A stretch of 64,000 nt of DNA from Dyella telluris (lineage in GTDB: Bacteria; Pseudomonadota; Gammaproteobacteria; Xanthomonadales; Rhodanobacteraceae), in assembly GCF_014297575.1 (NCBI RefSeq), contig NZ_CP060412.1, forward strand, positions 496,001-560,000, read 5' to 3'. A program made the position numbers and the translations under genes. Numbering within the stretch: position 1 is the stretch's first letter; every line of letters starts with the position of its first letter. The notes below the pieces were generated by a model, which saw only the letters and a program-made list of their open reading frames with translations, did no database searches and was not told where the DNA came from. Shown piece after piece: positions 6,331 to 8,088 of the stretch.

Positions 6331-7536
6331 TCACGCAGTGCCAAGCAGCCACGCGGCGCAGCGCTCGACGTCGGTCGCCCCATGCCAACCGTGGAAGGCG
6401 ATGCGCAGATAGCCCTCACGCGTGCTCGTGCTGATGCCGTGCATCTGGGCGGTGCGCAGCAGCTCGTCGCTCTGCCTTGTCGGCAAGGCAAACGACAGGG
6501 TGGACCCCAGCTGGTCCGCACGCACCAGGGCATCCAGTCGCGCAGCCTCTGCAGCCCAACGCGCATCCTGCGCGAGCCTGCTCAGCAAGGCGCGTTGCAG
6601 CGACACGATATGCCTCTGCAGCGCCGCCGTGCCGCCACACTCCACCAGCAGGCGCAGCGATGACGCCAGCGCGGCACACGACAGGATCGACGGGCTACCC
6701 GCCTCCAGACGCCGGCCATCGGCGGCCCACAGCTCGTCGCTCTGCGACTGTGTACCACCCTGCGAGAAGTCATCCGGCGCGGACAGCCACGTGCCCAACG
6801 GCAGCAGCTGCTGGCGAAACGCCGGGTCAGTCCACAGCAGCCCCTGCCCCTGCAGGCCGAGCAACCCTTTATGTCCGCCGGTGGCAAAGGCGCTGACGCC
6901 CTCGAACGACGCAACCATCGTGCCCGCGCCCTGGATGCCATCCACCACCAGATGCACGCCGCGCTCGCGGCAGCCTCGGCCGAGCTTTTCCAGATCCAGT
7001 CGCACGCCGTCCTGATAGCGCACCCACGACACCGCCATGATGCGCGTGCGCGGGCCAATGGCCTCCAGCAGACGTTGCTCGGGCGTCATGCCAGCCACGG
7101 GAGCGGCGGTAACCGGCGCCGCCTGCCCTTCCCACAATGGGACTTCCCTGCAATCCACGCCGCGACGCGCCAGGGCAAGCCACGGCAGGCGGTTGCTCGG
7201 AAATTCGCCAAGCGGAAGCAACACCTCGTCGCCGTCCTGCCACGGATAACCCAGCGCCACCGCTTCCAGGCCACTCGACGTGCAGGTCACCAGGCTGATG
7301 TCCTGCTCCACCACGCCCAGCAGCGTGGCACCGACCTGGCGCAGCGAGCGCTGTACGTCGAGGAAGTCCTCGCTCCAGCGCACCTCCCACGGACGCAGCT
7401 CCGTCTCCATCAGCGCGCGCACAGCAGCAGCGGACGCTCGCGGCAGCGGGCCATCCTTGCAGTGCGAGAACCAGTACACCCCAGCGGGCATGTCGAACCA
7501 TTCGCGAGGCAGCAACGGCGAGGGAAGGTGCGACAC
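6331..7536 (-). CDS. Class V aminotransferase (PLP-dependent)
   Basis: A 401-residue fold-type I PLP enzyme. The Schiff-base lysine is in ATGGHKGLLG (about K223), and the pyridine-binding Asp is in VVDGIQG (about D199), with the usual 24-residue separation. The N-terminal part (CTSSGLEAVALGYPWQDGDEV) carries the phosphate-binding turn. Class V covers cysteine desulfurases, kynureninases, isopenicillin-N epimerase-like and serine-glyoxylate enzymes; the sequence lacks the catalytic Cys loop of cysteine desulfurases, so an aminotransferase or epimerase-like role is more likely. Substrate unknown. It is a single gene, divergent from the sigma-54 micro-protein locus. Confidence 0.8.
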   Translation of the reverse strand: MSHLPSPLLPREWFDMPAGVYWFSHCKDGPLPRASAAAVRALMETELRPWEVRWSEDFLDVQRSLRQVGATLLGVVEQDISLVTCTSSGLEAVALGYPWQDGDEVLLPLGEFPSNRLPWLALARRGVDCREVPLWEGQAAPVTAAPVAGMTPEQRLLEAIGPRTRIMAVSWVRYQDGVRLDLEKLGRGCRERGVHLVVDGIQGAGTMVASFEGVSAFATGGHKGLLGLQGQGLLWTDPAFRQQLLPLGTWLSAPDDFSQGGTQSQSDELWAADGRRLEAGSPSILSCAALASSLRLLVECGGTAALQRHIVSLQRALLSRLAQDARWAAEAARLDALVRADQLGSTLSFALPTRQSDELLRTAQMHGISTSTREGYLRIAFHGWHGATDVERCAAWLLGTA

Positions 7537-7652: not shown

Positions 7653-7706
7653 CGGACAGTGGGTGTCCGGCGTCCATGCCGCGTTGTCCGGACACCGTCC
7701 GCGGAC
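7653..7706. promoter_or_regulatory. Three TGTCC/GGACA inverted repeats (candidate enhancer sites)
   Basis: Three clustered dyads share one half-site: CGGACA-N5-TGTCCG (7653-7669), the perfect palindrome TGTCCGGACA (7685-7694) and GTCCGCGGAC (7697-7706). They lie about 70-125 bp upstream of the sigma-54 promoter at 7774, the usual distance for upstream activating sequences of AAA+ enhancer-binding proteins. The sites are read directly; the activator is inferred and is not encoded nearby. Confidence 0.65.
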
Positions 7707-7773
7707 ACTCGAAGGTGCGCGGAGCGCAACAGAAAAACGGCACAACGGCGCGGGTTTCCAGCCATCGGCACGG

Positions 7774-7790
7774 TTGGCACGAGGCTTGCC
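7774..7790 (+). promoter_or_regulatory. Sigma-54 (RpoN) promoter
   Basis: TTGGCACGAGGCTTGCC matches the -24/-12 consensus TGGCACG-N4-TTGC exactly, with GG and GC 12 bases apart. The predicted start of transcription is near 7801, giving a 35-nt leader before the ATG at 7836 that includes AAGGAG. Confidence 0.8.
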
Positions 7791-7835
7791 ATCTATCCAG
7801 TGAAAGCCACTCAACCCTGTTCAAGGAGAACGATC

Positions 7836-7991
7836 ATGAAATTCGAGAACCTGATGCTGCATAGCCTGTTCGCCGCCTGCCTGCTGGTCTGCGTGCTGAC
7901 GCTGGGCGCCATGATCACCGCACCGGCTTTCACCCCCGCTTCCGTGGCAAGCAATGCACCGGCAGCCACCGCCACGCAGCCGGCCGGCTGA
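7836..7991 (+). CDS. 51-residue single-span membrane micro-protein, sigma-54 controlled
   Basis: The reading frame starts at an ATG preceded by AAGGAGAACGATC and codes for MKFENLMLHSLFAACLLVCV, continuing through one hydrophobic segment (about residues 7-32) to a Thr/Ala/Pro/Ser-rich tail of about 20 residues ending in Gly. It could be a membrane peptide with an external tail or an exported peptide. The upstream perfect RpoN promoter with enhancer-like dyads argues strongly that it is a real regulated gene. I recognise no family. No partner gene is co-directional nearby; a 20-bp palindrome follows at 8069. Confidence 0.75.
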   Translation: MKFENLMLHSLFAACLLVCVLTLGAMITAPAFTPASVASNAPAATATQPAG

Positions 7992-8068: not shown

Positions 8069-8088
8069 GCCCCGGGATATCCCGGGGC
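8069..8088. terminator. 20-bp perfect palindrome downstream of the micro-protein
   Basis: GCCCCGGGAT followed directly by ATCCCGGGGC. It could fold as a GC-rich hairpin ending the sigma-54 transcript, although no U-tract follows; a protein-binding palindrome is the alternative. Confidence 0.4.

Follow-up and report, generated by a model that had tools for sequence, protein, structure and literature searches.

The question raised by this locus is why a promoter of the sigma-54 (RpoN) type, preceded by an array of enhancer-like dyads, stands in front of a gene for a membrane peptide of only 51 residues. The locus lies in the window, by which we mean the whole stretch of DNA analysed (64,000 nucleotides, positions 496001-560000 of a genome of 4,991,029 bases in a single contig), and it comprises the following features, given in window coordinates.

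7664-7669, plus strand: outer half-site TGTCCG of the enhancer array, belonging to the everted pair at 7654-7668, invariant in the window and its seven closest orthologs; such half-sites are found repeatedly, in phase, on the upstream side of the core dyad
7685-7694, plus strand: upstream dyad TGTCCGGACA, a putative enhancer, invariant in the same eight sequences
7697-7707, plus strand: core dyad GTCCGCGGACA, likewise invariant and recurrent genome-wide
7774-7790, plus strand: RpoN (sigma-54) -24/-12 promoter TTGGCACGAGGCTTGCC, supported by sequence, counts and conservation
7801, plus strand: transcription start predicted from the -12 element
7823-7828, plus strand: ribosome-binding site AAGGAG, conserved in close orthologs
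7836-7991, plus strand: 51-codon gene (ATG at 7836, stop at 7989-7991) for a single-span membrane micropeptide of type A, with orthologs and a hydropathy span at about residues 11-29

The promoter TTGGCACGAGGCTTGCC starts at 7774, where the first-pass annotation had placed an exact RpoN consensus, with the GG of the -24 element at 7776-7777 and the GC of the -12 element at 7788-7789 at the fixed spacing of such promoters; because of the positions of these elements, transcription is expected to start near 7801. The consensus TGGCACGNNNNTTGC occurs once in the 64-kb window against 0.11 occurrences expected from shuffles, and the dyad sequences TGTCCGGACA and GTCCGCGGAC also occur once each, against 0.02 and 0.21 expected, respectively. 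In the whole genome TGGCACN5TTGC is found 26 times against eight for the reversed pattern, and the RpoN core alone is therefore not decisive. When the window is aligned with its seven closest orthologs, full invariance is seen in the TGTCCG half-site, both dyads, the -24 and -12 elements, the ribosome-binding site, portions of the leader and a few short spacer blocks. The distance between GTCCGCGGAC (7697-7706) and the TGGC of the RpoN site is 68 bp in the window, and the upstream sites are helically phased. Of the three TGTCC/GGACA dyads that had been reported upstream, two stand as inward dyads (7685-7694 and 7697-7707), whereas the third (7654-7668) is an everted GGACA-N5-TGTCC, of which the relatives keep the TGTCCG half-site at this position but not the pair. 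By eye, no obvious IHF-like site was found in the spacer of the window. It is unlikely that the dyads also serve, divergently, the aminotransferase-like gene at 6331-7536 (minus strand): no exact RpoN core is present on the minus strand of the window, and the orientation of the conserved parts is that of the plus strand.

The 51-codon frame is a real gene, as had been proposed. In codons 1-26 the seven closest orthologs differ from the window by 24 synonymous changes and one non-synonymous change, and over the 21 orthologs examined the pooled values are pS 0.25 and pN 0.084, with single more distant pairs reaching a dN/dS of up to 1.14; on these counts this part of the peptide is under purifying selection. 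With the 51-residue sequence as the query, matches at E <= 0.1 were obtained in 37 of 61 genomes, namely in all 20 of the genus (its own genome included), in 13 of 17 from other genera of the family and in four of 24 from other families, two of the 13 (0.018 and 0.065) and all four of the last group (0.006-0.095) being weak. An alignment-based search of 250 genomes of the order gave at least 45 with a match at E <= 1e-4, all from the same family, with seven listed family members lacking a match; 185 further genomes had none, and first-look candidates were scored in part, so that the count is a lower bound. Up to ten peptide matches were found in one genome. The peptides fall into two types, which have the conserved membrane helix in common: type A, to which the peptide of the window belongs, is of about 50 residues with a variable Ala/Thr-rich tail, and type B is of about 67 residues with a C-x-LPPDGVVCPR-like tail (25 and 27 of 52 peptides, respectively, by a rough rule). 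This genome encodes one peptide of each type. The helix is better conserved than the tail; the type B tail motif is conserved across genera, and the type A tails are without a clear conserved core. In an alignment of 34 peptides of both types, which is a hand-picked subset of those found, Met1 and Glu4 are invariant and Leu8, Leu11, Phe12 and Met26 are nearly so. The peptide of the window matched no family in Pfam or NCBIfam, and among its 62 database relatives the named ones are all 'hypothetical protein'.

According to the list of open reading frames, the next downstream genes point the opposite way, so that nothing else is likely to be contained in the transcript, and the claim that the promoter can control only the peptide gene probably holds. 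Downstream of the gene there is a perfect palindrome, GCCCCGGGATATCCCGGGGC, at 8069-8088, and similar ones are located next to the gene in some orthologs (L040, L042 and L043); no T-run follows the palindrome of the window, and a terminator scan found nothing.

The peptide had also been described as an isolated micro-protein, which is correct for its transcript but not for its regulon, as four dyad promoters are present in this genome: that of the window gene, that of the type B paralog (2000798), that of an exporter operon (1226080, minus strand) and that of an S33 hydrolase (2589918). The genome-wide scan for dyads near RpoN sites that had been proposed was carried out with the composite pattern GTCCGCGGAC-N45..75-TGGC-N8-TGC, with the reversed pattern as the control, on 41 genomes of the family taken as an even draw; exact GTCCGCGGAC dyads only were counted, which biases the result toward strong members. 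The scan defines a regulon, with 121 sites in 35 of the 41 genomes against three for the reversed pattern. The spacings between dyad and core are confined to 45 (three sites), 55-58 (15 sites) and 64-70 (103 sites), that is, to 12 of the 31 allowed values, in steps of about one helical turn. A chance match is ruled out by the 121 composite sites against three and by the restricted spacing. The conservation of the elements, the helically phased fixed spacing and the genome-wide recurrence all argue for RpoN control and for the enhancer role of the dyads, both of which had been predicted from the window.

The first genes after the 121 sites encode a micropeptide (55), a MacA-like adaptor (33), an S33 hydrolase (10), a MacB-like permease (9), a DUF885 protein (2), a kinase remnant (1) or other products (11), the classes having been assigned automatically, using BLAST against the proteins of this genome and a profile derived from the clearest peptides in the set itself. 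Nine of the 55 micropeptide sites have two frames that fit the profile, and most of these frames look like tandem peptides. Among the 11 unclassed sites, two (L245 and L253) resemble chance matches in coding sequence when inspected by eye. Extra half-sites within 80 bp upstream of the core are found in 54 of 55 micropeptide, 31 of 33 adaptor, six of ten S33 and eight of eight permease promoters, against two, two, one and none, respectively, in an equal stretch of the transcribed region, and in the 32 micropeptide promoters with a spacing of 68 the half-sites cluster near -79, -100 and -112. Named genomes, many of whose species are shared with the 41-genome set, were scanned separately with a stricter pattern and gave at least 121 promoters among the matches listed, from at least 120 records, with the same kinds of target: at least 56 micropeptide, 37 adaptor, seven S33, six permease and 11 other genes, together with at least two ATPase genes (one at 28% identity), one DUF885 gene (27%) and one activator-like gene (27%). 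Outside the family, among the matches listed, a dyad and RpoN site precede a homologous adaptor gene in records named Roseateles (55-65% identity) and Mitsuaria (58%), at L291, L312 and L350, and in an Acidobacteria MAG (36%), at L339, and the exporter module with its dyad operator therefore seems to extend beyond the peptides; such a module would be older or have been transferred.

Between the dyad and the promoter, sites fitting a relaxed version of the IHF consensus are enriched in some promoters, occurring in ten of 55 micropeptide, six of 33 adaptor, two of ten S33 and none of eight permease promoters, against means of 0.3, 0.2, 0.02 and 0.01, respectively, in single-base shuffles. The same interval contains ATGGCTT-N5..8-TGCGG, a loose pattern, in 15 of 30 type A promoters (for example L188, L203 and L206; shuffle mean 2.7) and TGACAANNGTCA, TCACTTG or IHF-like pieces in 13 of 20 type B promoters (for example L181 and L223; shuffle mean 0.3), where the patterns were picked after seeing the data and the split into types is rough. 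Additional regulators, or IHF, may bind at these spacer patterns.

The search for an activator whose own promoter carries the dyad, which had likewise been suggested, led to the exporter operon. From the dyad promoter at 1226080 the order of genes is the adaptor, an ATPase, eight permeases with MacB_PCD and FtsX domains, a DUF885 protein, an activator and a kinase, and this stretch of about 18 kb is apparently one transcript. Its last two genes, in genome coordinates, are as follows.

1210255-1211613: NtrC-type activator (receiver, AAA+ and Fis-type HTH domains)
1208368-1209792: kinase of the exporter operon

The genome has one sigma-54 (RpoN) gene and encodes five strong AAA+ proteins with a Sigma54_activat domain, which from their neighbours and sequences we read as FleQ-like, VpsR-like, PilR, NtrC and the exporter-linked activator, the family models having been run on the last of these. 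Orthologs of the exporter-linked activator (69-100% identity) are present in 40 of the 41 genomes. Thirty-four genomes have both the activator and strict dyad sites. In 31 of these a dyad promoter precedes the activator on the same strand at a distance of 5-37 kb, against about 0.55 expected by a rough uniform estimate and none in the mirror (downstream) control, and in the remaining three (G033, G067 and G074) the sites and the activator are on different contigs; the exporter-linked activator is therefore likely to be the regulator. The segment LSRQALYRR of its HTH is identical in all of the activators compared, which are 30 of the 40. Six of the 41 genomes, with activator identities of 70-73%, have the activator but no strict site; two of them, G023 and G034, have LSRQALYRR, so that this segment alone is no predictor of a strict site. 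Of the 23 more distant activators included, one (47% identity, in G081) is linked to a dyad promoter, and paralogs might therefore share the operator. The VpsR-like activator was rejected as the regulator; an RpoN core lies nearby (1596611), with no dyad beside it. This core (L069, plus strand) is situated between argD and the VpsR-like activator gene with no obvious protein gene downstream, and it could possibly belong to a small RNA. In this genome and in two relatives, the kinase has two predicted membrane spans with about 24 residues between them (the pattern caught three of 30 loci), a loop that would suit sensing within the membrane or through the exporter.

We consider it likely that the locus is a sigma-54 promoter with an enhancer array driving a small inner-membrane peptide of a conserved regulon, with the exporter-linked NtrC-type activator as the most likely regulator. 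As read from sequence, the peptides are best understood as inner-membrane helpers of an RpoN-driven envelope or peptide-stress regulon. In such a circuit the kinase would sense envelope or peptide stress, perhaps via the co-transcribed exporter, and the phosphorylated activator would bind the TGTCCGGACA/GTCCGCGGACA array, whose elements share one face of the helix some 70-110 bp upstream, and would remodel the sigma-54 polymerase. The four promoters of this genome would then fire together, giving the type A peptide, the type B peptide, the exporter operon and the apparently secreted S33 hydrolase. Finally, and this is the weakest step, the peptide would reside in the inner membrane via its conserved helix with the short variable tail outside, where it might modulate or stabilise the exporter or another membrane partner. 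Since the two peptide types have different tails but one conserved helix, they may interact with the same partner in the membrane, most naturally the co-regulated exporter; alternatively, the helix serves as an export signal. Counting against such a partnership, adaptor genes with a dyad promoter are also present in two genomes (G025 and G032) in which no peptide was detected.

This alternative, the main rival reading though on balance unlikely, holds that the peptides are themselves exported, with the shared hydrophobic N-terminus as a leader for the co-regulated MacAB-type exporter and with the tail (Ala/Thr-rich in type A, with a Cys-x-LPPDGVV-Cys loop in type B) secreted as a signal or an antimicrobial, which the co-regulated hydrolases would trim. 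It would account for the promoter type being shared with the adaptor, the ATPase, the eight MacB/FtsX-type permeases, the DUF885 protein and the S33 hydrolase, for the type B tail motif being kept across genera and for the presence of up to ten peptide matches in one genome, and it is the model of the darobactin-export ATPase that gives the ATPase of the exporter its highest score, although one below the cut-off. However, a helix more conserved than the tail is unusual for a mere leader, the type A tails show no clear conserved core, and adaptor genes with a dyad promoter are found in genomes with no detected peptide (G025 and G032), which implies that the pump has other work. In a broader form that we hold to be rather doubtful, both peptide types would be substrates or signals of the co-regulated multi-permease exporter in a family-wide system of peptide communication or antagonism, with export directed by the shared helix; the sigma-54 two-component system embedded with the exporter would then control peptide genes at scattered places on the chromosome.

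That the promoter is RpoN-dependent but its array is served by a different one of the five clear activators encoded here, or by several sharing it, appears improbable. Besides the number of such proteins, G065 speaks for it, as a micropeptide whose dyad promoter is intact persists in this genome although a close ortholog of the exporter-linked activator is missing, and another activator is possibly acting there. The other dyad promoter of G065 (L170, G065:C1:1742400-1746597) is followed by a frame in which an ISL3-type transposase domain is fused to the end of a histidine kinase, so that loss of the exporter/activator operon is likely in this genome. QseF/GlrR sites also have related half-sites, TGTCN10GACA (PMC8745638). 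On the other side stand the linkage of the exporter-linked activator to a dyad promoter in 31 of 34 genomes and the distance of about 62 kb between the nearest other activator and any of the four dyad promoters of this genome. Small RNAs driven by RpoN do exist, GlmY being RpoN-dependent. That the transcript acts as such an RNA or as a leader, with the frame incidental, would fit its short predicted length, the palindrome beyond the gene and the precedent of the GlmY/QseF pathway (PMC8745638), but it is very hard to reconcile with the 24 synonymous changes against one, the conserved ribosome-binding site and the lack of any Rfam family at gathering score in the window.

The circuit that we favour, in which the peptides are inner-membrane helpers, has partial counterparts among known systems. 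PspF is not known to have a receiver domain, whereas the linked activator here is a two-component regulator with a receiver domain, encoded in a MacAB-type exporter operon; it scores 250.5 bits with the PspF model TIGR02974, against a cut-off of 443.55, and is thus not identified as PspF. By logic the nearest precedent is nevertheless pspG, a separate gene for a small inner-membrane protein in a membrane-stress sigma-54 regulon: according to PMC2763126, the PspF regulon of E. coli consists of pspABCDE and pspG under sigma-54 and a membrane-stress activator, with PspG as a small integral inner-membrane protein encoded by a separate gene and predicted to have two helices, whereas here two peptide types share one helix. 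Like GlrR/QseF, the candidate is an NtrC-type two-component activator associated with TGTC/GACA half-sites, which it would bind. The QseF consensus is TGTCN10GACA (PMC8745638) and a known target is the small RNA GlmY, whereas the sites here are of the TGTC-N4-GACA type or tighter, the dyads of the window being TGTC-CG-GACA and (C)GTC-CGCG-GACA and the core often being TGTC-N4-GACA in the relatives. With the NCBIfam GlrR model the activator scores 294.7 bits against a cut-off of 763. With 128.4 bits against a cut-off of 94.9, the adaptor is recognised by the general RND_mfp model; it is similar to DarC and MacA, as the ATPase is to DarD and MacB, all below the DarC, DarD, MacA and MacB equivalog cut-offs; for the darobactin exporter, the adaptor reaches 83.4 of 450 bits (DarC) and the ATPase 259 of 375 bits (DarD). 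The operon here differs from darobactin and MacAB exporters in having eight distinct permeases, together with a sigma-54 activator and a kinase encoded within it. In Bce-type kinase-transporter modules, a kinase with a short outer loop is found beside an ABC transporter, and the response regulators are not known to be of the sigma-54 type. The short-loop kinase beside the ABC transporter in the present operon is similar, and transport-coupled sensing is putative here.

The peptide appears to be part of a conserved, uncharacterised response circuit, and a lone hypothetical micro-gene is thereby turned into a member of a defined regulon with a candidate activator, an operator sequence, a spacing rule and a list of targets, which opens the role of two unnamed types of membrane peptide to experiment. 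Dispersed membrane micropeptides that are under sigma-54 control along with a peptide-type exporter may serve as a useful model for the ties of small membrane proteins to transporters and envelope stress. No publication apparently concerning this regulon was found by title and the start of the abstract in the open-access papers searched. Among the genomes of other families, G039:C1 contains, at L073, L093 and elsewhere, a periodic repeat of about 127 bp that carries GTCCGGAC and TGGCCAGTATTTGC and is often in tandem.
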